Of a DNA stretch of 64,000 nucleotides, positions 2,185 to 47,141 are shown piece after piece. The first letter of the stretch is position 1. Every line of letters starts with the position of its first letter. The notes under the pieces are model-generated. The model saw nothing but the letters and a program-made list of their open reading frames with translations, was not told the origin of the DNA and made no database searches. This DNA is from Giardia muris (taxonomy: Eukaryota; Fornicata; Diplomonadida; Hexamitidae). The stretch covers positions 1,054,001 to 1,118,000 of the forward strand of contig CM016929.1 of the NCBI GenBank assembly GCA_006247105.1, written 5' to 3'. A program made the translations under genes and the position numbers.

Positions 2185-2198
2185 TTTCCCTTGAGAGT

Positions 2199-14285: not shown

Positions 14286-14299
14286 ATAAAATTCGACGT
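14286..14299 (+). promoter_or_regulatory. 14-base A/T-rich initiator
   Basis: The spacer ataaaattcgacgt between the acetyltransferase stop and the carboxypeptidase ATG. It supports the start at 14300 over an upstream in-frame ATG at 14258 that lies inside the acetyltransferase gene. Confidence 0.5.
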
Positions 14300-16192: not shown

Positions 16193-16230
16193 ATCCTTTT
16201 TTTGGGCCAAAAAAGACTTCACTTCAGACA
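16193..16230 (+). promoter_or_regulatory. 38-base spacer/promoter before the TTLL gene
   Basis: Contains a run of eight T followed by gggccaaaaaag, then acttcacttcagaca directly before ATG. This A/T-rich stretch is the only candidate promoter and the only 3' untranslated space for the upstream carboxypeptidase gene. Confidence 0.5.
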
Positions 16231-18552
16231 ATGTCGGACGAGTCCGGTGAGTACGGGGAGTTTTCTGAGGACGCATCCGAGGTCAGCGGGAAGGCTAGGG
16301 CCGCCAAACGCTTGGATGGGGACGGGTTAGACGGCGATGGGTTAGACGGAGATGGGGTTGGGGTTGAAGGACGACCCAAGGCGGGGAAGCGAAAGCGCGT
16401 CCGAGTCTGCCTGGACAATTGCAAGTACCCGGTGATCCACGAGATCTGCCGCAACCGGGGCTGGAGGCTCGTTGGAGAGGGTGAGGATTGGAACCTGCTG
16501 TGGAGCGACCGTTCGGTTGCCGCAGAGCGCCTGATGCGGATGCGGACGTACCAGCGGATCAACCACTTCCCGGGGATGTACGAGATCACGCGGAAGGACA
16601 CGCTCGCCAGAAACCTCAACAAGGCGCGGAGGCTCCTCCCTGACGAGTTCGACTTCTACCCCGTCTCCTTCTATCTCCCCGCAGACGCCAACGAGCTCCG
16701 CCAGTACGCCGCTCGGGCGTCTCGGAAGACGGTTTTCATCACGAAGCCCGTCGCCTCGTGTCAAGGAAAGGGGATCCGCCTCTTCAAGAACGTCGACTCG
16801 ATCGACATTACCGAGCCCCAGGTCATCCAGGAGTACATGAGCCGCCCCTATCTGATCGGAGGCTTGAAATTCGACCTTCGAATGTATGTCGTCGTCCTTT
16901 CCGTCGCCCCCTTCATGCGTTTGCTCGTTTACGAGGACGGGATGGCGCGCTTCGCGACAGAGCCCTATGCCGAGCCCACCTCGAAGAACATGCGGAAGGC
17001 TTTCATGCATCTGACGAATTACGCGATTAACAAGCGGAACGAGAACTTCGTCTTCAACGCCGAGGAGGACGAGGACAACGTCGGTTCGAAGTGGGGGTTA
17101 CAGGCGGTTTGGGATAAGATCCGTGAGGATGGGGGAGACCCAGAGCGATTGCGACAGGATATTGATGCCATCTTCATCAAGACGGTCCTTGCCGTCCTCC
17201 CAAACCTCCAGCACACATACGCCTCCTGTAGACCTGCGGAGACGAAGCCCGTGGAGCTTGATGGCCCCGGGATGGACCAGCAGTACCTCGGGTCGAATTG
17301 CTACGAGGTTCTCGGCTTCGACATCATGATAGATGGCTCCTTCAAGCCATGGCTCATTGAGGTTAACCATAGCCCTTCTTTCACCTGCGACACCCCTCTC
17401 GATTACCGAATCAAGAGCACCCTGATCAATGGCGTCCTCGACATCGTCAACGTGACGAATGGGGACCGACGGCAGTATGCGCGGCTCGAACGGCAGCGTC
17501 ACATGACTCGCCTCTATGGGAAGGCTGGCCCGCCCCCTCGTCCCGCTCCTAAGCCTCCCCCACGGAAGGGTGCCTCCGGAGATGCCCCTAAGAAGATCAG
17601 CACCTTCAAGACATATGAGGAGCATGTCCAGCGGTGTCTGGGCCGCTTGCCCTTCTATCAGATTTATCCCCTCCCTAAAGGCTGTCCAGATCCTTACAAC
17701 GGGATTCTCCAACGGATCCGAAACAAAGGCTCCGCTGACTTGTCCGATAAGCCCGTGGTCGTCCAGAAGGCCTCGTCAGCACAAACGGCGGCACTCCAGA
17801 CTGCAGGTGTGCGACGAACGGCATCCGCTACTCCTGCGACTCAGGGTACTGGAGCACGGCAACAGAATCAGGCCCAGTCCCAAGGACAGGGGCAAAATCA
17901 AAGTCAAGGTCAAACTCAGGTGCAGTCGGGAATGGACTCGGGACAGAGCACGTCTTCGCCCTCTCGGACAGACTACATCCAAGGGTCTGCTCCTCCAGCC
18001 TCCAGTCAAGGTCAGCATGGAGGAAATATACGCCCCGAGCCGACGCATGACGTGGAGCCAATGGATTTACTGCTTCGGCGGGCACTGTTGGAGTTCGAGT
18101 ATGGAATTCCCAGCCGTTCGATCATCTTCAAGGGTATCACAGCTCCAGTCCTCTTACCGCAGGGACCACCGCGGAACGACAAGCTCGAGAAGACGCGAGA
18201 CGCAGAGCTCCTGTCCAAGCTACGAGCGATGCTGAAGTTCGGGGTTCGGGAGTATGCAGAGAGTGTTGTCCAGACGGGTCAACGAGGAGGACAAACAAAT
18301 GCTCGGAACCCTCCACCACCACTGCCACAGCCGCGCCAGGACGTTGGGCCATACGTCGTGAATCGTTCGAAGTCCTCCGCGCAGTTTCACACGGCAGGGA
18401 TGCTCCCAAAGACCGCGAACCCGCATGTCGACAGCCACACGGCCTCCGTCTCCCGTGGGACCCACTATGGTACAGCCCGCGTCGTTCGCGCCCACGACGA
18501 GCCAACAATCCAGCCGATCGTTTATCGTGGTGTCACTGGAAAGCGGCGGTAG
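16231..18552 (+). CDS. Tubulin-tyrosine-ligase-like protein (TTLL polyglutamylase type), 773 aa
   Basis: The TTL ATP-grasp domain spans residues about 58-430. Visible signatures are RINHFPGMYEITRKD, TKPVASCQGKGIRLF (Lys172 and the GKGI loop), YLIGGLKFDLRMYV, FMHLTNYAINK, the SKWGL block, and the metal and ATP site IEVNHSPSF (Glu377, Asn379). The order and spacing resemble TTLL6/TTLL13-type glutamate ligases, which add glutamate chains to tubulin tails on axonemes. That subgroup call is inference; initiator versus elongator cannot be read from sequence by eye. Residues about 28-43 contain a DGDGL repeat. The C-terminal 250 residues are Q/S/P-rich and basic, possibly binding microtubules. The gene follows the carboxypeptidase after 38 bases and its TAG stop directly abuts the stop of the convergent next gene. 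Confidence 0.93.
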   Translation: MSDESGEYGEFSEDASEVSGKARAAKRLDGDGLDGDGLDGDGVGVEGRPKAGKRKRVRVCLDNCKYPVIHEICRNRGWRLVGEGEDWNLLWSDRSVAAERLMRMRTYQRINHFPGMYEITRKDTLARNLNKARRLLPDEFDFYPVSFYLPADANELRQYAARASRKTVFITKPVASCQGKGIRLFKNVDSIDITEPQVIQEYMSRPYLIGGLKFDLRMYVVVLSVAPFMRLLVYEDGMARFATEPYAEPTSKNMRKAFMHLTNYAINKRNENFVFNAEEDEDNVGSKWGLQAVWDKIREDGGDPERLRQDIDAIFIKTVLAVLPNLQHTYASCRPAETKPVELDGPGMDQQYLGSNCYEVLGFDIMIDGSFKPWLIEVNHSPSFTCDTPLDYRIKSTLINGVLDIVNVTNGDRRQYARLERQRHMTRLYGKAGPPPRPAPKPPPRKGASGDAPKKISTFKTYEEHVQRCLGRLPFYQIYPLPKGCPDPYNGILQRIRNKGSADLSDKPVVVQKASSAQTAALQTAGVRRTASATPATQGTGARQQNQAQSQGQGQNQSQGQTQVQSGMDSGQSTSSPSRTDYIQGSAPPASSQGQHGGNIRPEPTHDVEPMDLLLRRALLEFEYGIPSRSIIFKGITAPVLLPQGPPRNDKLEKTRDAELLSKLRAMLKFGVREYAESVVQTGQRGGQTNARNPPPPLPQPRQDVGPYVVNRSKSSAQFHTAGMLPKTANPHVDSHTASVSRGTHYGTARVVRAHDEPTIQPIVYRGVTGKRR
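16315..16359 (+). repeat. 15-bp tandem repeat (3 units) at the TTLL N-terminus
   Basis: Three near-identical 15-base units of the form gacggcgatgggtta encode DGDGL repeats. They are in frame and in a non-conserved region, so copy number could vary between strains. Confidence 0.8.
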
Positions 18553-22334: not shown

Positions 22335-22340
22335 TTTACT
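22335..22340 (-). terminator. AGTAAA polyadenylation signal of the MAP kinase kinase gene
   Basis: On the reverse strand AGTAAA overlaps the TAA stop codon of the kinase gene, the position expected for the short 3' untranslated regions of Giardia. Confidence 0.6.
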
Positions 22341-23688
22341 TCTTCTCGACATTGTCAGCAATCCACTTGACGAAGAGCTTGCGGAGGTCTTCCTCCTTCG
22401 CGAGGTACTTCTTGCAGAATGGAAGCTTGAGCAGCTGGGCCGCACTCATGCGCTTTGCAGGATCCTTCTCGAGCATTGCGGCGACGAGATCACAAAGTCC
22501 AGGACTGAACCCGTCATCCTCCTTCAGAAGAGGGGGGTTTCCGTTGACAATGACGTTCATCGCGTCCCAGAAGCTATTCACGCCGTCATATGGGTACCTA
22601 CCCGTCACAAGCTCGACGTACGTCAGCCCCATACTCCAGATGTCGGAATTGAACGTGTAGGGCTGGTTCTGGATGCGCTCGGGAGACATGTACGAGAGAG
22701 AGCCGGCGAAAGTCTTCGTCGCGACCTCCTCGTCATGTGTCAGGACGGAGGACGCAACGCCGAAGTCCGCAAGCTTGCAACGCCCCTCCTCATCGACGAG
22801 AATGTTCGCAGACTTGATATCACGGTGAATGATCTTGCAGGTGTCGTGGAGGTACGCCAAGGCGCGCAGCGTGTCAATGATGAAGACCGCAAGCCCATTC
22901 TCCGTCAGCCGCCCACTCTTCAGGCGCTTCAGAAGATCCTGGGACGACCCATACCCGCAGAATTCTAGCAAGATGTGCAGAATAGAGTTCGGGTGGGCAT
23001 AGATGTTATAGGTCTTCACAACGAAGGGATGAGCCGAGAGCTCGATGCTCGCCTTGATCTCCCGATAGATGTTCTTGCGTGATTGCTCGTCGTCGCTGAT
23101 ACGCAACTCCTTCATGGCCGCGAGCTGGCCCGTCGTGCGGACCCGGACGAGATTGACGGTCCCGAAGGAGCCCGCCCCCAAGGGCCTCAGGGTCTCAAGC
23201 TCGTCCTCCTGGACGTCGAGAAGGACCCCGGCGTTCTCCGCCTTCGCAATCCCCTTGGCGGTGATCTGAAACGACTCGTGCATGCTCGTCAAGCTCCCGC
23301 TCTCTGTCACCTTTAAGGCCTGGGGGTTCGCCGTCACCGCCCCACTGACCTCCTCCACGGCCGCCGGGGCCGGTGCAGACTCCAACGTCAACCCAATCGG
23401 TCGGCGCTTCATGGCCTGGTTTTTTTGGGCCGCCGCTCCCAAGGTGGGAATCGAGGCTGAGAGTGGGGAGAAGGGTGGGGGGAAGGCGTACAGCTCCCCG
23501 CCCTCGCCCGACGCCCCGAAGCTCCGCCCCGCCCCCATGGCCTGGCCATGGGCGCTTGGTGAGGGCGTCGCGTGAAGGACGTGGACCGGGCTCTGGATCA
23601 GGGCACCAAGGTCTGAAGATGAGCCCATCGGCATTGTCGTGTCGATAGGCTCCGGCTGTATGCGGCCAGGACGACTAGAGCCCCGCAT
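22336..23688 (-). CDS. MAP kinase kinase (MEK/STE7-like) protein kinase, 450 aa
   Basis: Residues about 165-440 form a complete kinase domain: glycine loop GAGSFGTV (171-178), the VAIK-type Lys193 (AAMKEL), HRDIKSANIL (288-297), DFG (308-310), and an activation segment TKTFAGSLSYMSPERI whose 'S-Y-M-S-P-E-R' wording is diagnostic of MAP2Ks. Thr324 and Thr326 are the likely phosphorylation sites. MAP2Ks phosphorylate Thr and Tyr of MAP kinases in the cytoplasm. The first 160 residues are proline-, serine- and alanine-rich and may hold docking sites. I chose the ATG at 23688: it follows an A-rich tract and avoids the Cbf5 gene, whereas an in-frame ATG at 23841 would overlap that gene by 127 bases. 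Confidence 0.9.
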   Translation of the reverse strand: MRGSSRPGRIQPEPIDTTMPMGSSSDLGALIQSPVHVLHATPSPSAHGQAMGAGRSFGASGEGGELYAFPPPFSPLSASIPTLGAAAQKNQAMKRRPIGLTLESAPAPAAVEEVSGAVTANPQALKVTESGSLTSMHESFQITAKGIAKAENAGVLLDVQEDELETLRPLGAGSFGTVNLVRVRTTGQLAAMKELRISDDEQSRKNIYREIKASIELSAHPFVVKTYNIYAHPNSILHILLEFCGYGSSQDLLKRLKSGRLTENGLAVFIIDTLRALAYLHDTCKIIHRDIKSANILVDEEGRCKLADFGVASSVLTHDEEVATKTFAGSLSYMSPERIQNQPYTFNSDIWSMGLTYVELVTGRYPYDGVNSFWDAMNVIVNGNPPLLKEDDGFSPGLCDLVAAMLEKDPAKRMSAAQLLKLPFCKKYLAKEEDLRKLFVKWIADNVEKK

Positions 23689-23714
23689 GGGAACCTTTTT
23701 CCCCGACCGCTCGC

Positions 23715-24986
23715 CTAGGTTTTCAAACCCCTTTGCCCTCGGGTCGAGGACTCCGGAGCCGTCGCCGCGTTCGCGCACGTGTTCCCTGCGGTCGCCAGGA
23801 AGCGAGCTTCGGCCTCGGGTGAGCGCCAGCGCTCGATCCACTCACGTGGGGTTTGTTCAGTCGGAGCACCATACTTGTCCAATAGCCCTTGAGCTATTAG
23901 AGCCTTCCGCTCCTTTGCCATCGGCCCGAGGCCCCATTGTTTCTCATAGACATCGCGGTCCATAATCACTCTCTTCGTCGTCGCCACCACCCCATGCGAC
24001 GCTCCCATGATGTCTGGCGCACCCATTACGGCAACTCCCAGGGCAATGGCCTCGCCCTTGGTCGTGACCAGGACGACGGCATCTCCGGTACAGATGGTTG
24101 GCTCATACCGAAGAAGTCCTGGGATACGCAAGGGCGCGCCATACGTGATTGCATTGACGGCGGAATCCTTGACGAAAAGACGCTTCATCCCTACCAGAAG
24201 GTATTCTAGAGGCATGACCACCCGTCGCAAATAAGCCTCCTCTCCAAGATTCTTGTAGCGCCAATATGCATCCAGTACATCATGCATGGTCACTAAGTTC
24301 GTCTTTTCCGTCAGACGGCCCGTACGAACCCGTCTCAGCTCGAGCATGTATGCCTCCTGGCCTAGGAGCAAGCCAATGTGTACGCAAAGAGTCCGCATGT
24401 ACGTCCCAGCTTGGCAAGCCGCCCGAACGATCGCTCGACCCGTGGAGAAGTCTAGTTCAATGAGCTCAAGCTCGTAAATCTCACGAACACGAAGCTGCCG
24501 TTTGACGGCGCATCCCTCCTTCGGAGGGATCTGGAGTTGTGCACAGGTCAGCAGCTCCAAGGTACTTGATAGACGTCGTTCGAAATCCGCACGAGCGTGC
24601 TTATCCGCTGCCACTAGGTCTTTGAACTGGACAACACAGACATACTCCTTCCCGAGCACCTGTTGGGACTTGACAAGCCGTGTTGCACGCTCAAGACAGA
24701 CCAGAAGACAACCGGTGACGTTAGGGTCGAGAGTCCCGGAATGGCCCGTCTTCTCGAGCTCGAGGATGCGCTTGACCCAGGCAACAACCTCATGGGACGA
24801 GGGCCCAGCAGTCTTATCGAGGTTGATAACGCCGTAGCGCAGATGCTCCTGGATAGGTCGGGCCAGGGGGGAGTGGCCGCAGGTGCTCGGACTGTACGCC
24901 GAGGACTTGACGTTGAGCGTGGTGAAGCCGCGGAGGAGGAGGGGGAGTGTTTCCGGGTCTGGGACGTGTTGAATATCACAAGCCAT
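23715..24986 (-). CDS. CBF5: H/ACA pseudouridine synthase Cbf5/dyskerin, 423 aa
   Basis: The N-terminal region (TLPLLLRGFTTLNV) and the TruB catalytic domain match Cbf5: GVINLDKTAGPSSHEVVAWVKR, KTGHSGTLDPNVTGCLLVC with the catalytic aspartate in the T-L-D-P motif, ERATRLVKSQQ, and KEYVCVVQF. RRVRTGRL and the MPLEYLL stretch lead into the PUA domain (residues about 270-355). Cbf5 is the RNA-guided pseudouridine synthase of H/ACA snoRNPs, acting on rRNA in the nucleolus and stabilising these RNAs. The start at 24986 (MACDI...) fits homologue N-termini and follows aaaagaatgaat. In-frame ATGs at 24992 and 25022 are alternatives. The lysine-rich eukaryotic C-terminal tail is short. Confidence 0.94.
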   Translation of the reverse strand: MACDIQHVPDPETLPLLLRGFTTLNVKSSAYSPSTCGHSPLARPIQEHLRYGVINLDKTAGPSSHEVVAWVKRILELEKTGHSGTLDPNVTGCLLVCLERATRLVKSQQVLGKEYVCVVQFKDLVAADKHARADFERRLSSTLELLTCAQLQIPPKEGCAVKRQLRVREIYELELIELDFSTGRAIVRAACQAGTYMRTLCVHIGLLLGQEAYMLELRRVRTGRLTEKTNLVTMHDVLDAYWRYKNLGEEAYLRRVVMPLEYLLVGMKRLFVKDSAVNAITYGAPLRIPGLLRYEPTICTGDAVVLVTTKGEAIALGVAVMGAPDIMGASHGVVATTKRVIMDRDVYEKQWGLGPMAKERKALIAQGLLDKYGAPTEQTPREWIERWRSPEAEARFLATAGNTCANAATAPESSTRGQRGLKT

Positions 24987-25156
24987 ATTCATTCTTTTGA
25001 GGACGTTTTTAAGGTTCAGCATTTCCTCCCTCCCAGGGGCAGGAGGGGTAAAACACCGAGGTCATCACAGCCCCATACCAGCTACCCTGTAGTCCTGCAA
25101 TATTTGCACCCCCGAGGTCAAGACCGCGTCAATCCGGGCGCGCATTTGAAAATTCT

Positions 25157-33200: not shown

Positions 33201-36200
33201 CCCCTCTTCAATGGGAAGCACTACCCCTCCGCCCTCATGTTTGTCCTTTGCCCCAATATTTACTGTGGTAACTTCCTGATCGTGCAACACGTCTTCCGTG
33301 GAATCCCTAGCCTCAGCATTGGACTCCTCCCAGGCGTCGATTCGTTTCTCATCGATCGTACGCGCCGTGCCGTCTCCGACCCGTACCAGGGCCCGGTTCT
33401 CTCCCAGATCGTCGGGATCACATCCGTTGACGAGGTAATGCGCTTCAGTCGGCCCTGCCTGGCCCCCATTCACCCCTACGTCCTTTCTGATACAATTGTC
33501 CCTCTAATGGGAGAGGAAATAGCTCGGAACTCCTCCCTGGCCTGGGCGGAGTTCACTCAGGCGCTTCAGAAGTATGAACGAAGCATTCAAGAGCAGTTAG
33601 CATCTCTCTCGAAGGTGGATGGCCAGGTGGATCCGACACAGCCACCGACGCCCACTGCAGCCATGCCTGGGAATCAGTTTCTTACTCACGAGGCGGTTAA
33701 AGCCCAAGTCCCCCCAAATGGTCCCAACAAGGTGGGCGGAAATGACTTCGCGCGGATTTACCTGGAGGCGTGCAAGCTTTTCGACGAGTTCTTCACGAGT
33801 TATCACTTCCGTTCGATCGTTGTGGTCATCTCGACCTACATCCGTACCGCCTACACGCGGATCCTGGGTGAGGTCGTCGCCGGAAACCCTGCTCCTCGTG
33901 CGCTTGGTTCCTTGATGAACCTACTCGGATATTTGGGAAAGGCAATCGAGCAGGGCGTCATTTGCGGCCGGAAAGGGATCGTCCACCGGCGTGCCGTCGT
34001 TTCGCGCCTACGGGAGTGGTTCGATCTATTGGCCGATGCTCGGAAGCTATTCTCACAATGCCAAGGCCCGGGGGTATTAAGCATAGTCCCGTCATTCCCA
34101 CTCATCTACCTTCAGCACAAACAAAACCGACTTTGTTTGACCTCCGACCGAGGTAGCTACGCCATTGACGTCGGCCCATATTGGTTCGGTGCCGCAAATC
34201 TCTTCGACGCCTTCCTTCGCCTATCCCCACGGCAGCTCGGGTTGATGAACAAGATCCTTGCCGCCATTTTCGAGCGTTCGATCGTCTTTCTTGTCTGTAA
34301 CAGCGAAAAGGGCCATGGTAGCACGGAGCTCTTTTTGGTCATCACGGCGCTCACCCGGTACTTATGCCAACGCCCAACCTTCTGTCTTTTCAGCGAGTTC
34401 ACCTTCGCACGGAACATGCAGCATCTTGTCGCGGCGATCCTAGCGGGAAACATCGCGGTCGTGATAGGACTCGAATATCTTCCAAATTGGCAGCTCCTTG
34501 AGCTATGCACCTTTGCCGAGAACCTTCGGGAAAAGCGGGGCCCGATCCAAGGAGTCCTCTTCACAGATCCCGAAACCCTCGTGACCCGAGCTGCTAGCTT
34601 CGAGGACTTCAAGGATAGGCTCGGGACGGTGATCTTCTTCGTCCCCGAGATGAATGCTAGCACGTGTGTCAACGAGGTTTATTACGTCGAGCCAAATACT
34701 CAGCGGACTGGTGACGCCCCGGTCCTACCGTTGGGTTCTCTTGGGAACGCCCCTGCCGAAGTCTCAGGAACGACACTCCGAGAGCAGAACGTTAGCGACT
34801 ACTACGACTATGTCTTTACTAGCTCGACGCGCCTCGATACGATCGTCCTCCCGTTCCGGGTGCGGACCGTCATCAATTTCGAGACGGAGAGCCCAGAGCA
34901 GGTCTATATCGCCCAGTCTCCGGAATTTGGCCGTGCTTTCTACGAGATCTCGACGTTCCTGCGCGCCTGCAACAATTACACGTACCGGTTCGTGGCCTCG
35001 GATATCCAACTGATCCAGGCCCGAGTCAAGGACCGAAGTAATGCGTTTTATGTGGCGGCACTCACTCTTGACCTGATCCTTCGTCAGAACCTGAACTTTG
35101 TCCTGCGTCCATTGAGCAATGCTAACCTTCCGGAACTCTTTTCGCAACTCGTCTCTTCCGCCTTCGGGCTCGATAAGGTCTCCACTGTCCAACTCCACAA
35201 GATGGGGAAGGCCTTCTGGGGGTACATCAAGACGAACCTCTACGCTCTGAACATGCTCTCTGAACCGACCGTGGATGAGACGTCTATTCTGATGCGAGCG
35301 GGAGCTGCGCGCCAGGCAAGCACGATCAATGTCCACGCCACTTTCACGAAGTACTTTACCGATCACATCTCGAAATATGTCTCTCCACGCTTCTACAATT
35401 ATATCGTCACTTTCAGCCAGCTACATCAGCTTCCTCATCTTCTCGTGACCGATGTCGTCTTCACTGTCGAGCTCCTCAGGAGTGGTCGTCCCTTACTCGC
35501 CGTCGTCCCACAAACGAGCTACGTCCGTGCCTTTGCCTCCGTCCTCTGCTCCCTTCATGGCTGGCACGAGACCTACGTCATCGATGCGCGTTCTCTTCAA
35601 TCCTGCCTCAAAAGGATCACTATTCGTGAAGGACAGGCCGCTCTCAAGGTATCCCAGGCGAACCTTGCGTATCAGGAGGCCATCCATGCTGGAAAGCCCG
35701 CCGAGAAGCCAAGTGCGGAGGCGAGGGTCGAGGAGCTGATCATCATTAGCCCTCCAACGGTTGAGGTTCTTCGCAACATGATGGACCAGATCACGGGGAT
35801 GTTCCTTCATTACCCTGTTCTTATCGACGAGCTGAACTGCACCTTCTATCAGATTGAGCGGGGTAGAGGCCCATACTTCATGATCTGCATCTCTCCAGAT
35901 ACCCTTCGTGAGATGGGAGATACCATAGGACTCTTTACAAATCGCGCCTTTCTTTTTCCATCGATTGAGGGCTCGAGTGGCTGCGCCAAGCTCATCTGTG
36001 GTTCGTTCTCAATGGAGCCCGAGGTTCTATTACGGCATTGCGAACTTAACACGTCTGCTTGGCAGAAGGACCTCTCCCGCATGTCGTTCCGGTCTCCAGA
36101 CCTGCTCCTCTTCAGCCGCGGGTATGAATCCCGCATGCTACACAGTGTTACACGCGAGACGTACCTGCAGAAGGCGGCGGCACGCATCAGCGCGTTACCC

Positions 36201-39200
36201 ATCATCCTTCGAAGCATCGTGACGTACACCTATAATACGTTTTCGCGCGTCCTGAGCTGTGTCAACAGCATCGAGGACGTCTTCGCGATCCGCGCGATGT
36301 TCTACTACTTCCTTCTACGGCTGGGGATCGTCGACGTAGTACGACGACCCCTCCAATCAGACTTTCTCGAGACCAATCTTCGGGACATCTCCCGCTTCCA
36401 AGGGGATGCGGAGGCGGTGATGAACGAGCGCATCATTCGGATCAATGAGTTCAGCGGTTATACCAGCGGTGCCGGCCCGATGGCGCAGATTGGAACCTTT
36501 GGCTATCTTCTCAACCTTTCTTTAACTCAGACGTCTGGGTTTTCTGGCCTCGAGCAGGTCCTCTCTCCTGAACAGCTTTTCATCATTGAGCATTATCGTA
36601 AGACCTTCAAGGAAGAGCGGCAAATCGCCATGCAGACTCCAGAACAGCCATATGAGGTGCGTACTGAGGTTCCCCCACCTCCAGCGAACGCTGATGACGT
36701 TCAGCTCGCCTTTGCGCGCCAGGCGGTCCAGAACTCCCTACAGTGCGCGTTCTATGGGAAATACGCGTCCAATAACAAGACGTTCCTTGCAGACGAGATT
36801 TGGCCCTTCCCAGACGTCGCGGGATTCGCGACGACGGACTTCCAGGCGATCACAGAGGTCATGAAGAGCATGCAAGGGAGTGGGCGTTCACCGGAGACCA
36901 ACGCTCAAGCGGTTCTCGAAAGGCATAGCGAAGGGGCGATCCCACAGCTCGGTCTTGGGTTTTGTGGGTCACTCTCGTTCGACCTCACTCCTACCTTTGC
37001 TCTTAATGCTTTGTTCACTCCCTCAGACCACTTCACGGCCTTTGCGAATATCACCGTCCCAATTGTCGCGGCCCTTTGGAATGCTTGTTCGCTTTTCACT
37101 ACGATCTTCGGAAATGGGAAAATCCATCTTCAAAAGGGGCCTGGAACCTATACGAAATGGTTGGCACGGAAGTATGCAGATTCCCTTAAGCAGCTTCGGA
37201 ATCCTGAGACTGATAAGGTCGCCTTGCACGGGCTCGGCGCACTGGCCGCCTTGGTACAATATGAGCGCGACTCGGACGTGCTTGATAGTGCACTCGCCAA
37301 TCAGTTGAGGACAAACCTTGGGAACATCCCCATCGACTATTCGGGCGTCCCTATGACGCTGACGACGCGCATCTTCACAGAGTTCATGGAGCATACGCTC
37401 TCCGGGCTTCCTAAAGACCTCCCTTCAAAGCTATCCTTCAGGGGCCATGATCTTGCAAGGATCAACTCGGCGGAAACCTGCTTCGGCTATATCGATTATT
37501 CTGGTGGACTGAACACGAATCAGAAGTCAGCAGACTATAACACATTCACTTTTCAGGCCGAGTTCCGCCTTTACGAATTCGGGTTCGGAGTACTTCGGAA
37601 CGTCCATGATGTGAGCGATCGAACACTTCTTGAGCGGGATATTCACGGTATTGCCGAGCGCTTTCTGCATAACAAGTACACGTCTCTCAAGGCCATTAAG
37701 AAGAAGGCAAACCTTGAGCACCAGAAACTCCTTCGAGACCGTGAGGATGCTATGTTCACCCGTCTGATGCCACATGTCCGTTCGCGTGATTCTGATAACC
37801 AGAACAATGCAGATGCCGTAGAGCTACGGAAACTTGCACGGCCTCAACCGGAGGATCCATACATGTCATCGGATGAGGACGATGGTGTTCCAGTCTGGAT
37901 CTCTCCGGAGGAGGCTGAGACCGATGATTCAGATTCAGAAGGTGGTGAGAAGGATCAGATGAATGCGGCAGAACGAATCCAACGTGGGCTTCCCAGGTCC
38001 TTGCACCTGACCTCTGCAGACCGCCTTTATGTCGAGTCCCATCTCCTTCAGCTTGACTCAGGAGAGTCGACGTCTGTACAGAACGTGGCGACGAATCCCG
38101 TGCACTTCAGCCCGCATCACTGCGCGCTGATCGTTGCGATGGGGTGCGCGATGCTTACGCCCTCATCGGTGTGCTTGACGGGTCCTTCGGGGAGTGGGAA
38201 GACGACGATCATGAAGGCCGCAAAGCTAGTCATGCGAGATCTTATCGCCCCAGAGTTTTTCCTTCTCACAGATGGGCACTCGGAGTCGACGGTTCAAGCA
38301 TTGATCCGGACGATTGCGGCGCGGTGCTTACAAAGGAACTATGTCACGGCTGCACGGGCGCGACTTCTGGGGAACTCCGCCCTTTCCGAGCGTGATGACT
38401 ACGTTCTTGATTACACCGACACTTATTGTTATCCGTCACTCCACCTTCATTGCTCCGACATCCGGGATGACGCCCCAGTTGATGGGCATCTTGCTCTACT
38501 TCTTCGAGACCATATGGTGCACTTGGATGAGGGGGGGACGGTTCCAAGTCCGATCTACATTGATGCACCGTTCGACTTGAAGTCAGGCGTCATGACACTA
38601 TCGGACATCTCTTTGCTTGTCGAAGGGACGTCACGTAACCCGTTGGTCAAGTTCTGCAGTCTGACCGCGGAGATGCCAGCACAGACCGAGTCGTTCCTCG
38701 TTGGACTTTACCGCCGCAGCTTTCCACAGCAACCCGAGCTATGGTTCTACCAGTACGTCAGCGGCTTCTTCCTTGCTCGAGGCTCCTTCCCCGAGAGCCT
38801 CACAGACACGTACCCCATCTTCTGCAATATGGTCAACAACCTCATCTCCGCCATCCTCTCGGGCGGGAGCCTTAGCGAAGGGCTCCAGAAGCTGATCAGT
38901 GAGGCGGATGACCAGGCGCGCATTGACGGCCTGACAGATGAATCGGAGCCGAGCATAATAACGCTCCTCCGCCGGAATGGCGACTCATTCATCGGGCGCA
39001 CTGGTGTCCATACCCTCTTCGGCGCTCTTCGTGGTATGCCTCAGATCGGCCATAACGAGATGACGGATATCGGAGAACGCTTCGCTTCCTTATGCTTCCT
39101 TGGCTACCTCGACAGTACTGGGCTCGAGCCTGCAGTCCCGGAGGCCGCTCTTCAACAACAGCAGGCGCAGCCTCAACCGCCACAACAACCGCAACAGCAG

Positions 39201-42200
39201 CCGCCATCGGTCCATATAGTCGAGCCTGGGGCAGTGAAACACGGAGGTTCAGGGCGACGCACGAAGGATATCTCAAAACCAGCGCTCAATGTCGCCAAGC
39301 GTGATGAAGGGCCTTGGTCAGACGTCAAGGCGGCGTTATTGACGCGCTTTGCTCTCTATCCATCATGGGAGGCCTATCTCATCAATCGCTCCATCCATCT
39401 CGGCAGAAAGTTGATTGGAGAGGCTCCCAAGACGGTGTTCGAGCCAGCCGCGTCGCCTCTCACACGTTATATTCCGATCAACAGGCTTCTAAATCCGACG
39501 ATGACTGGAAGTTATTTAGGACATGTGGATGGGATCATTGACGAGCGACCCGCCCTCCTCTCGCTTTCCTATCACACGATCAATGCATTCTGGTTTGCGC
39601 ACATGCTCCTCCTTGTGCGTGCCCTACCCACCTTTGACCCATTCCTCGTCGGCCGCGTCTTTCATACGTTCTTGTATGTACGCTCGATCCGAGAGTTAAA
39701 TCAGGCGCGATTCCAGACCATCATCCGACACCCTCAGTATACTAGGCGTGCTGGGGCGCTATCGGGCTTGCAAAGCGGTGATCCCTTCCATGCTGCACGG
39801 ATGAACATTGCAAAGCGTGCCGTCCCCTTTTCAGGGAAGATCTATGTCTCCATGCACCGTGGGAAGACGAACCTGGCGAAGAAGGGAATCAGTCAGGAGT
39901 TGCTGGATTACATGGACTCAATGGCCATTGCCGAAAACAGAGCTTGGAACCGGACTCTTAGAAAAGCCACCTCTTCACTCGTCGTCGAGGATGGGGTCTC
40001 AGCGGCTGACGAAACGTTGCTGCGCATAGAGATGTTGAACCAAGCGCGAGTCCGTCGAGCGCGAACCCAAGGTCTTGAGGTGATGTGTCTTCCACTCGCC
40101 GCCCTTCTTGCACTTCGCCCTTCAAAGTGCATTCTCTCAGTTATCAATGGAACAAACACTTGCTACGACGCCATCGTGTCCAGCTTCCTTGCGATCTCCG
40201 GCTTCGAACTTCTGACCATAGAACGTCTTCGCTCACTCGACACGCTTGCGGCACAGGGGACCATTCTCATTGACCTGGTCGCTCTCACGCAGGCCGGAAA
40301 CCCCATTAAGAATTACTTGATGGAGATGATCTCATCTGTCGTGCATGACAGTAATGATGCGGAGTTCCTCCTTCTGATCACTATTCTCAGACTTTCCATG
40401 GCTCTTGCGCTCGGGGTGCACCCCACAACCATCTATCCGGTTCAGAAGGTTCCACGAGATGTCACCAACGGGTTCATCACTTGGAGCTGTTTGAATAGCG
40501 GGTTGCCGTATCGAGTCGTCGGGAATGGGCGTGATCTCGCACTTTTGCCAGCCAAGCTCAACTCCTGGTCGGGATTAAGAGGAAAGTCAGTTGAAATGCT
40601 TCGTCAGGACCGTAAGGAAAAGCTTTCGAGCTTTCTTCTTCCGGCGGCACATGACATTGTTGTGACTGCACCGCGCTCTCTCCTGATCTCCTCGGCATCT
40701 GGGAATACGCCGGTTTACGAGCTACTTGCTCGTACCATTGAGCCCCTATGCACCATGGATGGACTTTTCTCGGCGGAGGAGGCTCTCGCAGTGTGTACAC
40801 TCGCCTGCGCTTCTGTTGGGCTTCGAATCACGCCGGATCGTCGTTTCCTTCCGGGCCTTCTTTCCCTCAATTTCACCCTTATCGTTGTTGACGACTTACC
40901 TCTTGGATCTCAGACGTCCACCCTTCCGACTGGGCGTGTCGTCCTTGAAGCCCGCTCCTATTCGGACTATCTTCGAATCCCCTACTTCAACTCGATCAAA
41001 TCTCCCGCCTTCGAACTTCTGCGTCACCTTAGCATGGGGCTCAGGACGTTTCGGCAGGAACAGACGAATACCAACAAGGGGACGACTCAGGATGCCCAGA
41101 AGATGCTGCTGGCCTCGAATAGCAACGTCACGGCTAGGCGCCAGGAGCTACGCCTGAACCTTCTCGAGCACCACTTCACGGACATCTTGAGTATATTCAA
41201 GCTTTCGCGCTGCGGAATCCCCGCAGACCCTCCCAACCGCGTTTTCCGGCGTGGGAATACGGCCCGCCGCGTCTTCCTCGCAACATTCAAGTACACGTAC
41301 GTCGTCGCCGCGCATTCCATCTACGCTTTCGCGTTCCGCTTCACACGGGCTCCGATCCCAACCATCGTCAGGTTTACCCGGCTTTGTGCTCGTCTCACAG
41401 ACCTCATCTACCAGCGGCTCGACAGCTTCTTCGGGTGCATCGAGACACTCAACATGGCGCTCATGGCCTTCGAGGGCTTCGCCGCCTCCAGTAAGACGAA
41501 GTGCCGTGTTCTCGACCTGACCCGGCTCAGCTCGGACCTTATTTCGCGGATAGTTGCGAGTGCCGTAGCGGCGGTCGAGCGGCAGCAGTCGGCTGGAAAG
41601 GCCTTTCAGAGCGCGTATGCGGACAGGACCCGGAACCTCCAGGCGGCAGTTGCGGAGGCCGTGGTAACCCGAGACATCTTGTACTCGATTATGGAGGCAC
41701 TTAAGGTCGAGATCCGCCTATATGAGGCCATCGTTCAGGTCGGGTATCTTGATGCCATCCTCTGCGCCGCGTACCTCTGCTTTTCACAGACTGAGTGCTT
41801 ACCAGAGGACGTGTGTTACCAATGCCTACTCAATGGGGATTGCGGGGACGTCACAGCCTCTCTTCGACACTATATAGGATTGGCGAAGGAGGGGACCATC
41901 GTGAGCGCCTTCACGGCTGCAATGGTCGTCATCCTGAACTCGTCTAGCATCGAGGCACGTGTTCCGCTGTTCAAGAAGACTCAGGAGGCTTTACTCCAGG
42001 ACCATGGGGTGGTAGGGATTCTTGGGAGTGTTCCGGGACGCCCCTTCTTCCTTAGCCATATGTTATCGGTCCTGTCGCTGGACACGCCGATGTTTATAAT
42101 CATGAAGGCCTTGAATATCGCCTGGAAGCCTAGAGATCCCGAACAGGTGGTGCTAAATAGTGCCGCGATCTACGACCTTGTGGGAACTCAACTCTATGTT

Positions 42201-45200: not shown

Positions 45201-47141
45201 ATTCTAGCCGGAAGAGAGTCCCTGCCATGCAACGACGTCGATACGGTCAACCTATTGACCTCCTGCATGCTAAAGGGATTATCACAAACGAAGTACCCTC
45301 CAATGGACCTCACGAACTTTGCACGTGTTTCCATGGCCGATTCGGCCCAATTCAACCTACCTCCGGATTCCATGTACTCGACGTCTGATTGTCGTTATTT
45401 GACCATCCTCAACAGGCGTATGGCGAAACTGACCCAGGGGGATGCTGAGGGGATAGAGGGGATGCTTCTCAAGGAGCTCGTCGTATCTGCTATAGAGGCC
45501 TATGACCGAATCCTGATGCGTCAGTTACGAGATAAGATGAAGGCGCGGGAGGCGGATGAGAATAGGAAACAGGACTTACATGGGAGTAGCGATTCGTCTG
45601 AAGAGAATGATAACCAATCCACATCGGATTCGCGTTCGACGAGTGCGAGTTCATCAGTATCTGGGGCATCGAGTAGTCAATTGGATACTGGGAGCAGACA
45701 GTCTTCAAGAAGCTCGGTTAGTGGGATTTCCGACGTTCATGATGATTTCGACGATTCTGTTAGTCAGGCACTTAGTTCCGTCTCCAAAAGCTCGTCATTA
45801 TCGACTCAGAGCACGACAATCTTCCGTCGGACGGATGGAGGTCTAGCCTTCGCCGAGGATGAGTACGACATCTATTCCTTCCTGTTACTCGGGATCAAGA
45901 TGACTGATAATTGTCTAGATGGGTCGACCACTGTTAGTACCAGCGACATTGAGAAGTCCGTCATCAATAGCTTACAACCCAAACGGCGGAAGCTTTTGAA
46001 TATAGCGACTCCGAATCTGATCAACCATGCCCTTGCACAATACAAGAGACAACAGCAAGCCGAGGCGGCCCAAGGCGTCATTCTTAAGTCCGGAAGGGAG
46101 AAGGTGGACCCATTCCTTTCCGCGTTATCCTCGGACCTATCTCCATTGGATGTTCCACTAGTGGTTCCAAAGGAATTCAAGACCAGTGCTGACCTGGAGC
46201 TATTCTATACCCAGCTGGAGCTGTACAACGTGACAAGACTGACCTTTAACGAGTCACCCCTGACGGACGAGGAGAAGGACTATGTTGCGACGGGACTTGG
46301 GCATGAGACCTTCAATTTGATCTATCGGATCATTATCTCATCTCCCTTCCTACATCAGGTGATGGGGAAGGCGCTAGGGATAGTTACCACGCGTCCAACG
46401 TATCAGGCCGATGATATGAAGGCGATGCCGCACATCTTCAAGAACTACTTGGTTACCCTTCGCCTTTTTAGGACGATACATTTCGGGATGCATGGGAATT
46501 ACCTCTCCGGTGCCTTCACCCTTGATACCTTCCTCTCCTCGACCTTCAATCTTAGTGCCTTGAAGACTATTGATGGCCATCTCGGCTTTGGTGCGTATGC
46601 GGACCACTGGATCATCTCGGGGCGCGCATATAACAGCGTTCTTGGTGACGTCCTGAACTACCTGCGAATGATTAACGCCATTCTCCTATCTGCGCCATTA
46701 GTCAGGCAGAAGGTGGTTGTCCTGCTGAAGAAGCCGCAGTCTGCGCCGCGGATCCTTGCGGACGGGAGCATTGTCACGGAGAAGGACGACACGCGCCTTG
46801 GTCGACGCCCTCTATTCTATATCACCATCCGTGGGATGGAACTTGTGGGCGCACACTATGACTCGGTGCTTGATACGATCTGTGACGTCTCTCCCGAATC
46901 TCGTAGTGGGTATGGGAGTGCATACGACCTCTACGCCTGCTGCGCTACCGTCGATGATAATGCCGCCACACACATTTCGGAGGTGACTGGACGCCAGATG
47001 CGCCTACCAACGAATATCGTCCCCGTGCCCTTACGGATGGGAGGGTATTGTCAGGCAGTAGTCTACGTCCCTAATCGGACCACCGTCAGTAGCGAGGAAT
47101 GGAGACGACGAAACCCTCGTTTCGTTGCTCGTATGATTTGA
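27228..47141 (+). CDS. Giant divergent dynein heavy chain-like protein, 6637 aa
   Basis: One uninterrupted frame. The dynein order can be followed although identity is low. AAA1 starts near Tyr2318 (YWFGAANL for 'YEYLGN'); its Walker A place reads NSEKGHGSTE (2358-2367) and its Walker B place VVIGLEYLP (Glu2416). AAA2 (P-loop place near 2755-2770, AVVPQTSYV; IIISPPTVEVLRNMM near 2840) and AAA4 (INGTNTC near 4306) lack the motif too. AAA3 has a perfect GPSGSGKTT (3652-3660) and IYIDAP with Asp3779. The stalk place (4714-4840) is only about 130 residues. AAA5 (about 4975-5050), AAA6 (EDEYDIYSFLLLGIKMTDN) and the C-terminal domain (GRRPLFYITIRGMELVGAHYD) follow. Length exceeds the usual 4000-4700 because of a tail of about 2300 residues and several low-complexity insertions. 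Probably a non-motor or highly specialised dynein; function unknown. Confidence 0.85.
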   Translation: MEEPIDLEGLTSPAFPAIPKPPGATAVVLAPALSLPGALSWCICPALFYATPREVDLRAGRATLLLHLSSTEAVETSVPLHMLYALAEATNTSSDSELPPTPLVSFLRPWNTCNLTLPPREAPLDELGERLLAGAIRRVGWPTDLEGTANDVYKTTIAEARAELQLAMEVTTRSMSHDDESDIQAPARLIAALCPTLPPLFPLYGTSPTATSVVSQQGLPFARNAGYAPEFASNPELVILRRKKFAVLQAFLGNELRYTPTFVLEKSFLEEMAQLHADLIRFQEPLFPPTLGKRFAAFLDRLDEILALVLDHERRLNVLKLHAESLETLAQRVRRHAVALEGKPFIHAAEVFVHSLLPLGLFAFNALVYLQPKTFTEYRLAQLLSETRDALDELVNVAGHSRAIADGEVYPLARRHGLAYRDTLTRKAALYSYLATTSATVNEMQTTELAEYIQGRTSQDWSSLEGFEAVRQAGRLGRHYHGHIHMSEPDEEVPILRQQGDALGSLGAPHGVGSMPTVVREERRVEIREYLTDHSFITVYMVSVRAYAQLLTRLTDECEYEAYLQRMSDFHTKFCFSELVLLSRSDEHAGTFSLRDEMRLVSPIRMSLKYDRLAQTVTFDGGLDGLRAGLQPYDYLKLLMAFVPAYNICDFIDLSLWPLSRLIGNRRLIERLKYAFDVASERTYEFLTDQVAAGHTVAAPMEHSLVDSTQLDQSLSESSSTVSQQRLSHTQLTIDIPRTDSRLQSVDTGLLTDLATSRIIPAAAPPQVTQICLDLPGERLQTLYSRSRLLPLVQTVGLRAQLALPLFNTLSTVIQRVEGYFQRVASDINAAASDFLTFYSSNSSIKAIASLQLQHSNKVLTFEQLSRFILFQDEAIASVPDFEQVAEILGRLDSLEATLRALGRFGGDGAPETLCLEQEQDRGPGLFQDVLSSFDLGLENPEAEGVGEGEGEDEDVEGLDAYFKLFAVQDEAKFLDPLYVGPAVIDVAQIARQLFAHVVELKADIRDKCHQSLRHLADYLSSEVNAVRNLLTSFVLDPNALQSIIDVKAYLTDDRVSRALRRALDWLSQSLICCFGPLSVQLLQQMADVEKALRTILARSASDVVNTNRVKMSRLEGLARTIDNSRTLCPCFVQSGTPSSLSVASESSTSFLAGLLIEAQDLSLLPHDSPADFFLFEPLISLLELASAINATAGNFPQRLHAYRQLVTQAQRKMLGIAQYLSNHVGELMRLGYHDLEAAEKQPLVFQQRFPHLSANIDLSHIHFEFALRADEEAETGTDASNEEKGESEAQIQSQSQLLDYERDFLLSLAIKTSLPIYSTNVSRTDLFGPSGGIDYLVMGDIDFSAIADRQRHGATEADDPRISLLPATGDVDVFVRQLDELLAMEVHIKGTIRDLRRVAFQGHHLVEKETQLSQDRFYVRPVVSMKTKNAYDTRRILLELRLVLREFCIIQLGVDRWNRYVTRATHGTWQKTISPIEVLLNYALPLCSIVINLYDLRRLHGRGVDWPVSDYPSDELIQILEQNVSMIRTLHGRINQPERFSIVLPFALDDATENDSDVDLSQCAAASQRRELPALTYAPWTEYLKYAQELQLNFAAPVVLIHILRMPNLFEYHYHAISDFSERLAEDRSDLARAGSYKALVLSHTPSRFFLSHFEKDHLFFSALVAIANNVLTDEEALKQLKIIDGILHSIILECTYDIPIGMSALSQPWNRVARCVLITPPNADSVIQEALASLAPILNNIGYSHGTVRGVPEFLERLFSHIAIGSQITTTRYLPPRYQAHREIIQQQRYTAQIEAFARYLECTAWLMSYLYKALVRCSQLLYALLQISVHGSTIETDARCTFRMPETAEERALALAARPLFHDSCLIATLLSHTEIEQLREFAVRWMEICTTRFHRRCLPMVGLIYDKELCLSLSQMCRELTLMYGRLTRGWSEGLLNNLQLITRYVTTLGVNPPEAVMALRHSNVFEDYVVPTSNPVRPSTAPKRIIPLFNGKHYPSALMFVLCPNIYCGNFLIVQHVFRGIPSLSIGLLPGVDSFLIDRTRRAVSDPYQGPVLSQIVGITSVDEVMRFSRPCLAPIHPYVLSDTIVPLMGEEIARNSSLAWAEFTQALQKYERSIQEQLASLSKVDGQVDPTQPPTPTAAMPGNQFLTHEAVKAQVPPNGPNKVGGNDFARIYLEACKLFDEFFTSYHFRSIVVVISTYIRTAYTRILGEVVAGNPAPRALGSLMNLLGYLGKAIEQGVICGRKGIVHRRAVVSRLREWFDLLADARKLFSQCQGPGVLSIVPSFPLIYLQHKQNRLCLTSDRGSYAIDVGPYWFGAANLFDAFLRLSPRQLGLMNKILAAIFERSIVFLVCNSEKGHGSTELFLVITALTRYLCQRPTFCLFSEFTFARNMQHLVAAILAGNIAVVIGLEYLPNWQLLELCTFAENLREKRGPIQGVLFTDPETLVTRAASFEDFKDRLGTVIFFVPEMNASTCVNEVYYVEPNTQRTGDAPVLPLGSLGNAPAEVSGTTLREQNVSDYYDYVFTSSTRLDTIVLPFRVRTVINFETESPEQVYIAQSPEFGRAFYEISTFLRACNNYTYRFVASDIQLIQARVKDRSNAFYVAALTLDLILRQNLNFVLRPLSNANLPELFSQLVSSAFGLDKVSTVQLHKMGKAFWGYIKTNLYALNMLSEPTVDETSILMRAGAARQASTINVHATFTKYFTDHISKYVSPRFYNYIVTFSQLHQLPHLLVTDVVFTVELLRSGRPLLAVVPQTSYVRAFASVLCSLHGWHETYVIDARSLQSCLKRITIREGQAALKVSQANLAYQEAIHAGKPAEKPSAEARVEELIIISPPTVEVLRNMMDQITGMFLHYPVLIDELNCTFYQIERGRGPYFMICISPDTLREMGDTIGLFTNRAFLFPSIEGSSGCAKLICGSFSMEPEVLLRHCELNTSAWQKDLSRMSFRSPDLLLFSRGYESRMLHSVTRETYLQKAAARISALPIILRSIVTYTYNTFSRVLSCVNSIEDVFAIRAMFYYFLLRLGIVDVVRRPLQSDFLETNLRDISRFQGDAEAVMNERIIRINEFSGYTSGAGPMAQIGTFGYLLNLSLTQTSGFSGLEQVLSPEQLFIIEHYRKTFKEERQIAMQTPEQPYEVRTEVPPPPANADDVQLAFARQAVQNSLQCAFYGKYASNNKTFLADEIWPFPDVAGFATTDFQAITEVMKSMQGSGRSPETNAQAVLERHSEGAIPQLGLGFCGSLSFDLTPTFALNALFTPSDHFTAFANITVPIVAALWNACSLFTTIFGNGKIHLQKGPGTYTKWLARKYADSLKQLRNPETDKVALHGLGALAALVQYERDSDVLDSALANQLRTNLGNIPIDYSGVPMTLTTRIFTEFMEHTLSGLPKDLPSKLSFRGHDLARINSAETCFGYIDYSGGLNTNQKSADYNTFTFQAEFRLYEFGFGVLRNVHDVSDRTLLERDIHGIAERFLHNKYTSLKAIKKKANLEHQKLLRDREDAMFTRLMPHVRSRDSDNQNNADAVELRKLARPQPEDPYMSSDEDDGVPVWISPEEAETDDSDSEGGEKDQMNAAERIQRGLPRSLHLTSADRLYVESHLLQLDSGESTSVQNVATNPVHFSPHHCALIVAMGCAMLTPSSVCLTGPSGSGKTTIMKAAKLVMRDLIAPEFFLLTDGHSESTVQALIRTIAARCLQRNYVTAARARLLGNSALSERDDYVLDYTDTYCYPSLHLHCSDIRDDAPVDGHLALLLRDHMVHLDEGGTVPSPIYIDAPFDLKSGVMTLSDISLLVEGTSRNPLVKFCSLTAEMPAQTESFLVGLYRRSFPQQPELWFYQYVSGFFLARGSFPESLTDTYPIFCNMVNNLISAILSGGSLSEGLQKLISEADDQARIDGLTDESEPSIITLLRRNGDSFIGRTGVHTLFGALRGMPQIGHNEMTDIGERFASLCFLGYLDSTGLEPAVPEAALQQQQAQPQPPQQPQQQPPSVHIVEPGAVKHGGSGRRTKDISKPALNVAKRDEGPWSDVKAALLTRFALYPSWEAYLINRSIHLGRKLIGEAPKTVFEPAASPLTRYIPINRLLNPTMTGSYLGHVDGIIDERPALLSLSYHTINAFWFAHMLLLVRALPTFDPFLVGRVFHTFLYVRSIRELNQARFQTIIRHPQYTRRAGALSGLQSGDPFHAARMNIAKRAVPFSGKIYVSMHRGKTNLAKKGISQELLDYMDSMAIAENRAWNRTLRKATSSLVVEDGVSAADETLLRIEMLNQARVRRARTQGLEVMCLPLAALLALRPSKCILSVINGTNTCYDAIVSSFLAISGFELLTIERLRSLDTLAAQGTILIDLVALTQAGNPIKNYLMEMISSVVHDSNDAEFLLLITILRLSMALALGVHPTTIYPVQKVPRDVTNGFITWSCLNSGLPYRVVGNGRDLALLPAKLNSWSGLRGKSVEMLRQDRKEKLSSFLLPAAHDIVVTAPRSLLISSASGNTPVYELLARTIEPLCTMDGLFSAEEALAVCTLACASVGLRITPDRRFLPGLLSLNFTLIVVDDLPLGSQTSTLPTGRVVLEARSYSDYLRIPYFNSIKSPAFELLRHLSMGLRTFRQEQTNTNKGTTQDAQKMLLASNSNVTARRQELRLNLLEHHFTDILSIFKLSRCGIPADPPNRVFRRGNTARRVFLATFKYTYVVAAHSIYAFAFRFTRAPIPTIVRFTRLCARLTDLIYQRLDSFFGCIETLNMALMAFEGFAASSKTKCRVLDLTRLSSDLISRIVASAVAAVERQQSAGKAFQSAYADRTRNLQAAVAEAVVTRDILYSIMEALKVEIRLYEAIVQVGYLDAILCAAYLCFSQTECLPEDVCYQCLLNGDCGDVTASLRHYIGLAKEGTIVSAFTAAMVVILNSSSIEARVPLFKKTQEALLQDHGVVGILGSVPGRPFFLSHMLSVLSLDTPMFIIMKALNIAWKPRDPEQVVLNSAAIYDLVGTQLYVVTHTAGLATAALLEGLHKGYRGHVFVQDTKKVLENLADNTMATNITNLYLKRVIRVDLTSPPDEFKRALQLDNHDVADSALREGGGEMSNPLDVEDPEALVNPCVVFEGIPKYSRVCLIHNFGAPTANLANISVLRSIYFGNSESRMSLIFELHPGVDFMTAATRSRLLTQDAIDRFSALVPIYYSRTPPETGEDQDHLENMTLYISSLITEALFGERTSGRAFIESFFSHVVTLSIGLFNLARVLSGYLTSIAPGCDSLNSLYSASVVPEHAARMVQVLSFSLKSPEAKEAQLQSLGHIIRLGASVTHPAIVKHAFIAAAVEGKVTKLDIDTEFNIACLEYAVVMTTGAQIARSVANGIAIVVAVMEELSAVHFPATIFISNELLDDLKHRLQVASQRYSGMLLQKYSAEPLPIPKEQMVAKKLVSLRLYRPMIHAVRENPAGIKNFLSATIMPRLNEQIFRLVDPRMGAALQCILSVLFFSTVDIFGGGAGGDQENSSMRRACAQLLAGRCVIRDMVRMATSQQLANAFLLESRFSVLNRYTKQQLAAIEKYGSVTEIIPEICTISPRITYAWLVVTILSRYNSVVAEALPWFAQNHSSFVALALTDKPLLAALAYYAQQQQQSAPKRPGMERLLPKVHQEALKKNAIVNLPPNMITPTGIVIFAMYCIHIVLRPEQITEAGEDVLTFMSALVGDSPTLLYNRVCSNASLGTSGINHSPIKALLPPKASETPDSSDSKPSLTPKQRIVNEIQPGFECLLRFVSCDPTGFRFPEKLISDDFFSLFEMADTVFDTYEFLRLPSTTSSALACGLIFYDSCIAVETVLQFVLLHTRRDETPIRLLKLPTLADFLGSIVILPIEMALGGYVLMDRLMEQLIKHSVASEHGSIKPFFILVSSCICGESMLYPPRAGRVRMTLTHKLGSIGALKRFIDFAHPTSFYLRMPTSLVTGFTHTFCLAVAITSMNLRTIWNREAIPEVALPLNFTISLRGLVMHCFRQAILAGRESLPCNDVDTVNLLTSCMLKGLSQTKYPPMDLTNFARVSMADSAQFNLPPDSMYSTSDCRYLTILNRRMAKLTQGDAEGIEGMLLKELVVSAIEAYDRILMRQLRDKMKAREADENRKQDLHGSSDSSEENDNQSTSDSRSTSASSSVSGASSSQLDTGSRQSSRSSVSGISDVHDDFDDSVSQALSSVSKSSSLSTQSTTIFRRTDGGLAFAEDEYDIYSFLLLGIKMTDNCLDGSTTVSTSDIEKSVINSLQPKRRKLLNIATPNLINHALAQYKRQQQAEAAQGVILKSGREKVDPFLSALSSDLSPLDVPLVVPKEFKTSADLELFYTQLELYNVTRLTFNESPLTDEEKDYVATGLGHETFNLIYRIIISSPFLHQVMGKALGIVTTRPTYQADDMKAMPHIFKNYLVTLRLFRTIHFGMHGNYLSGAFTLDTFLSSTFNLSALKTIDGHLGFGAYADHWIISGRAYNSVLGDVLNYLRMINAILLSAPLVRQKVVVLLKKPQSAPRILADGSIVTEKDDTRLGRRPLFYITIRGMELVGAHYDSVLDTICDVSPESRSGYGSAYDLYACCATVDDNAATHISEVTGRQMRLPTNIVPVPLRMGGYCQAVVYVPNRTTVSSEEWRRRNPRFVARMI

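Follow-up and report, generated by a model that had tools for sequence, protein, structure and literature searches.

A 64,000-nucleotide window of the Giardia muris genome (contig CM016929.1, positions 1,054,001 to 1,118,000 of the forward strand) contains a giant gene, P0001, whose predicted product of 6,637 residues is likely to descend from a dynein heavy chain and to have lost its motor role. Its frame, said to be intact over 19.9 kb in a preliminary description of the window, is indeed open over 19,914 bases from ATG to stop codon (Table 1). Five relatives (P0002–P0006) likewise have intact frames, and the six proteins range from 6,624 to 7,361 residues. P0002 is 92% identical to P0001 and P0005 38% identical overall; identities to Giardia lamblia proteins are 38–39%, and the relatives carry the names Giardia lamblia or duodenalis. 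The lamblia orthologues GL50803_0035341 and GLP15_396 bear only the database name "hypothetical protein". The orthologue search proposed in the preliminary description succeeded for other Giardia, in which the altered site discussed below is kept, but the protein searches made detected no relatives in other diplomonads and no orthologues of the paralogues C and D described below; one further protein search returned the query itself as the sole match. No report on the lamblia orthologues or on dynein pseudoenzymes was found in the open-license literature, which is not proof that none exists, and the main texts of PMC3986054, PMC3243723, and PMC3877021 contain no mention of "35341".

Searches of the source genome (9.74 Mb in 52 contigs) identified paralogues as well. 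Paralogue B (C2:1310151-1323227; frame of 6,546 residues) was recovered at E 6e-94, and paralogue C (C2:1764258-1775750; 6,446 residues) at E 3e-5, or 3e-12 by blastp; paralogue D (C5:103470-103766; 7,145 residues) is weakly supported, at E 0.06, or 9e-4 by blastp. P0006 is nearer to B (34% identity) than to P0001 (29%).

The altered AAA1 site

The preliminary description held that the first motor domain, AAA1, has a P-loop without the GxxxxGK[ST] pattern and an incomplete catalytic Asp-Glu pair, and both statements are borne out. Its residue numbering is correct, with Glu2416 inside the Walker-B-like strand; no Asp precedes this residue. Only the segment LAGNIAVV was misplaced: it was put after that strand, but occupies residues 2405–2412 and overlaps it. 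A canonical Walker A motif was sought elsewhere in AAA1 and none was found; the sole G-x4-GK-[ST] motif of the protein, at residues 3652–3659, lies 1,294 residues downstream in an AAA3-like domain. Among dynein motors of the same genome for which AAA1 was fetched, Walker A is retained in all nine; a tenth dynein (L031) has no AAA1 Walker A, its frame starting within AAA1.

The altered loop is well preserved among the relatives. It reads NSEKGHGSTE in P0001 and P0002, SSEKGYANPE in P0003, SSEKGHSNTE in P0004 and P0005, and GSEKGHCNPD in P0006, so that SEKG is invariant in all six aligned rows, as is the residue corresponding to Glu2416. The block spanning residues 2301–2400 is 55% identical to P0005—the sixth highest value among 67 blocks, against 38% overall—and identity over the altered site proper (2353–2367) reaches 73%, compared with 47% over the intact P-loop (3648–3662). 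Judged by this conservation, the altered site appears to be under constraint; because P0002–P0006 keep it unchanged or similar, it reflects neither chance nor local decay. Together with the intact frames of the five relatives, these data support the earlier proposal of selected divergence.

The same pattern might instead reflect a rewired AAA1, in which the invariant loop engages a nucleotide, some other ligand, or a partner by nonstandard means and still drives shape changes; the SEKG invariance, the stronger conservation of the altered loop than of the intact P-loop, and the retention of Glu in the Walker B place of C and (by eye) D are all in keeping with this. However, paralogue B has no SEKG and carries Gln at the Walker B position, and C and D (the latter by eye) have different loops. 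The paralogues therefore share no common chemistry at this site, and we regard rewiring as unlikely. What they do share is the absence of a canonical P-loop at the AAA1 place (in the case of D as judged by eye) and the presence of one such motif in each fetched part; the pattern of a single P-loop outside AAA1 is conserved in orthologues and largely common to paralogues.

Fold and sequence evidence for dynein descent

Structural modeling of residues 2175–2650 was carried out with AlphaFold2 (AF2). The model is of moderate confidence and its fold matches have low template modeling (TM) scores; nonetheless, the listed matches of this region are dyneins. Model residues 4–474 match residues 1732–2167 of 8dyu, which we take to be the linker end and AAA1 of human dynein-1, and the model shows the dynein order of linker followed by AAA1. 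Within it, a strand (2353–2357), a loop, a helix (2366–2379), a strand (2383–2387), a helix, a strand (2409–2413), and a helix are followed by strands at 2439–2446, 2453–2457, and 2467–2473. As modeled, this order of elements is that of a P-loop domain, with the altered motif in the P-loop place and IAVVIG in the Walker B strand; the predicted shape of loop 2358–2364 is unreliable, its predicted local distance difference test (pLDDT) score falling under 50. An earlier model of 1,161 residues (2170–3330; pLDDT 37.9) gives weak support on its own: none of its Foldseek matches reached E ≤ 1e-3, with F1-ATPases ranking first without significance, and several of its dynein alignments extend to residues 2314–2342 of human entries, a hint of an AAA2.

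Sequence searches did not recover this relationship. The profile hidden Markov model (HMM) check suggested in the preliminary description returned no passing dynein model: P0001 passes none of the Pfam dynein models (AAA_6, AAA_7, Dynein_C, and others), AAA_7 appearing at E 0.16–0.24, under its cut-off, in a scan whose HMMER filters discard most matches above E 0.1. Searches of the source genome with PF12774, PF12775, and PF18199 did not list the P0001 locus; NCBIfam and a PDB sequence search gave no dynein signal past the P-loop; and PDB profile searches with the AAA1 and C-terminal alignments returned no dynein. HMM-HMM comparison of a six-protein profile with dynein domains of the same genome (968 window pairs) matched at the P-loop alone, again with nothing further when paralogues B and C were added, and HMM segments built from these dyneins, with reversed sequences as controls, likewise found nothing past the P-loop. 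A 74-column match at residues 5290–5364 had a probability of 24, which fell to 1.7 once B and C were included in the profile, and was dropped. None of the tested parts of B, C, and D gave a Pfam hit to an AAA or dynein domain at E ≤ 0.1; for B the first piece ends 54 residues after the start of the P-loop motif, and the next ~2 kb (L042) lay outside the tested parts.

The claim that the surroundings of the site still align with dynein therefore stands at the level of fold but not at that of sequence. The possibility that the protein is not dynein-related conflicts with the way its linker end and AAA1 match dyneins in fold and, less strongly, with the longer model; the argument for descent is accordingly one from predicted fold, not from sequence. 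A giant AAA+ ring of another kind—midasin-type or another six-domain protein—could explain why Pfam detects just a generic P-loop and why F1-ATPases, if not significantly, head the ranking for the longer model. Midasin (Rea1/Mdn1) is kin to dynein and, like P0001, a giant multi-AAA+ protein. It differs in having several canonical P-loops where P0001 has one, and the genome holds a separate midasin gene at C1:2229000-2244500 (PF17865, PF17867). Neither midasin nor another AAA+ family occurs among the 50 matches listed in each of two fold searches, which does not by itself exclude them; with the listed matches of the linker end and AAA1 being dyneins, a ring of non-dynein origin is improbable.

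The retained P-loop, the stalk place, and the C-terminus

Each of P0001–P0006 has one canonical P-loop at the same aligned place, and with B, C, and D the motif is kept in nine of nine family members. Among dynein domains of the same genome, the best HMM-HMM match to this P-loop domain is AAA3 (probability 60–91, depending on window). Its likely Walker B strand has IDAP in P0001 and, in P0003–P0005, LDMP; by eye on the alignment, the catalytic Glu is missing.

In a dynein heavy chain, paired long coiled coils with a microtubule-binding tip are expected between AAA4 and AAA5. Using a home-made heptad scan with a criterion of two runs of at least 100 residues, such pairs were found in all ten dyneins fetched from the genome versus none of eight family members (P0001–P0006, B, and C), whose longest runs measure 72–102 residues; B alone reaches 100, and once. 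Paralogue D is outside this count because its fetched part stops 798 residues past the P-loop; the stalk place lies at least 1,034 residues past it in P0001, B, and C. One short run is common to five of the eight (P0001, P0002, P0003, P0006, and B), aligned within or near residues 4749–4854 of P0001, and has no equivalent in P0004, P0005, or C at the threshold used. It seems from these heptad patterns that the microtubule-binding stalk has been lost, with a short remnant left. Midasin pieces also have no long heptad runs, so the missing runs are not peculiar to this family. Likenesses of AAA2, AAA4, the stalk ends, and the C-terminus to human dynein were judged by eye, and a profile search with the C-terminus showed no dynein likeness.

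Retention of the P-loop in every family member would also be expected of a genuine, if slow or atypical, motor in which this domain hydrolyzes ATP and other parts of the protein touch microtubules. Against this, the likely Walker B strand has no Asp-Glu pair (by eye) and no paired, stalk-sized coiled-coil runs are present, making a motor of this kind very improbable.

Table 1. Positions in the window of P0001 and of the features assigned within it
Feature	Residues	Window position	Strand	Basis
Dynein-derived giant protein (putative), P0001		27228..47141	+	Open frame, ATG 27228 to stop 47141; relatives of 6,624–7,361 residues
C-terminal linker helices and degenerate AAA1	2175–2650	33750..35177	+	AF2 model, pLDDT 60.5; fold matches to dyneins
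NSEKGHGSTE, loop at AAA1 Walker A position	2358–2367	34299..34328	+	Model (strand before, helix after); SEKG invariant in 6/6
IAVVIGLEYLP, Walker-B-like strand	2409–2419	34452..34484	+	Strand in model; no Asp before Glu2416
AAA2-like segment, no P-loop motif	2740–2925	35445..36002	+	Low-confidence 1,161-residue model; otherwise by eye
GPSGSGKT, only canonical P-loop, AAA3-like	3652–3659	38181..38204	+	One in each of P0001–P0006 and fetched B, C, D
SPIYIDAPF, possible Walker B of P-loop domain	3774–3782	38547..38573	+	Alignment; strand assigned by eye
Short heptad-rich stretch, possible stalk remnant	4749–4854	41472..41789	+	Heptad scan; stalk place by eye
Conserved C-terminus, possible dynein C-terminal domain	last 243	46410..47138	+	54–56% identity to P0005 by block; dynein likeness by eye

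Several other observations concern dyneins of this genome. A divergent dynein at C2:472165-472968 (L033), in a frame of 6,851 residues, retains GASGTGKT as the Walker A of its AAA1 and shows a pair of long heptad runs; from its sequence it is apparently long yet of working type. Shorter frames at C1:635870, C2:908012, C3:432608, C1:381628, and C2:526691 (2,407, 2,296, 2,691, 449, and 873 residues, respectively) match the dynein motor in part only, as expected of split, trans-spliced genes, which are known in Giardia. A dynein motor fragment occurs twice with identical scores, at C1:1952452-1954212 and C1:2025150-2026910, ~73 kb apart, in frames of 1,389 and 1,399 residues. Elsewhere in the window, a cytosolic carboxypeptidase-like gene (Peptidase_M14 and Pepdidase_M14_N) is followed directly on the same strand by a tubulin-tyrosine-ligase family gene (14258-18552, forward strand); the two neighbors may erase and write modifications of tubulin tails. 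The window also contains a VSP gene (PF03302), which together with the names of the relatives fits an origin in Giardia, and, on the reverse strand, a protein kinase frame (22336-23841) overlapping a dyskerin/Cbf5-type frame (23715-25022) by 127 bases; the kinase probably starts further in.

A probable former motor in another use

In ordinary dynein, AAA1 hydrolysis drives linker movement and a coiled-coil stalk carries the microtubule-binding domain (PMC8754002). P0001 resembles cytoplasmic and axonemal heavy chains (solved entries 9dn5, 8dyu, 9e22, and 3vkh) in the predicted fold and order of its linker end and AAA1 and in the AAA3-like P-loop downstream. It is unlike them in having no AAA1 Walker A, an incomplete Walker B, no Pfam-passing dynein domain, and no paired stalk-sized coiled coils, and in the size range of the six proteins P0001–P0006. 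It would thus appear not to qualify as a working heavy chain, on account of its AAA1 motifs and, as far as the heptad scan shows, of its stalk. AAA1 would not hydrolyze ATP and so would give no power stroke, and a protein with no stalk would not walk on microtubules; with AAA1 dead and the stalk missing, neither linker drive nor microtubule grip could serve. Conservation of the P-loop across the family points to a continuing need for one nucleotide, which more likely holds or switches the ring than is turned over; bound at the AAA3-like site, where Walker B seemingly has no Glu, it may act as a structural or switching cofactor. P0001 is probably a former motor now in another use, conceivably as a giant scaffold; assigning it to microtubule structures or organelles of Giardia would be a guess.

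The nearest known orphan dynein found is DNHD1, a human heavy-chain gene termed a "ghost gene", which like P0001 falls outside the named motor classes. As described in two sources (PMC8754002, PMC9916431), DNHD1 differs in being already named a dynein and, in one paper, in the mention of a hydrolytic ATP-binding site; the comparison is by description and implies no orthology. Divergent Giardia heavy chains have also been described: Giala_37985 and Giala_DHC scored above a dynein threshold and were placed on a dynein tree (Wickstead and Gull 2007, PMC2239267). GL50803_0035341, in contrast, is named a hypothetical protein instead of a dynein.

More broadly, though here the balance tips slightly against us, Giardia may hold a family of four or more giant dynein descendants, stalkless and dead for hydrolysis, which keep one structural ATP site and act as non-motor building blocks, a pseudoenzyme lineage among its hypothetical proteins. 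Two features define dynein heavy chains, hydrolysis at AAA1 and the stalk; a conserved family that has neither, while keeping the front end of the motor, would show what use a dynein scaffold has when it does not move. Such proteins would offer natural "AAA1-dead, AAA3-bound" forms for work on allostery. These data also suggest that dynein inventories drawn up by sequence profile may miss relatives visible to fold comparison alone, and the family would account for some of the very large uncharacterized proteins of a widespread gut parasite.
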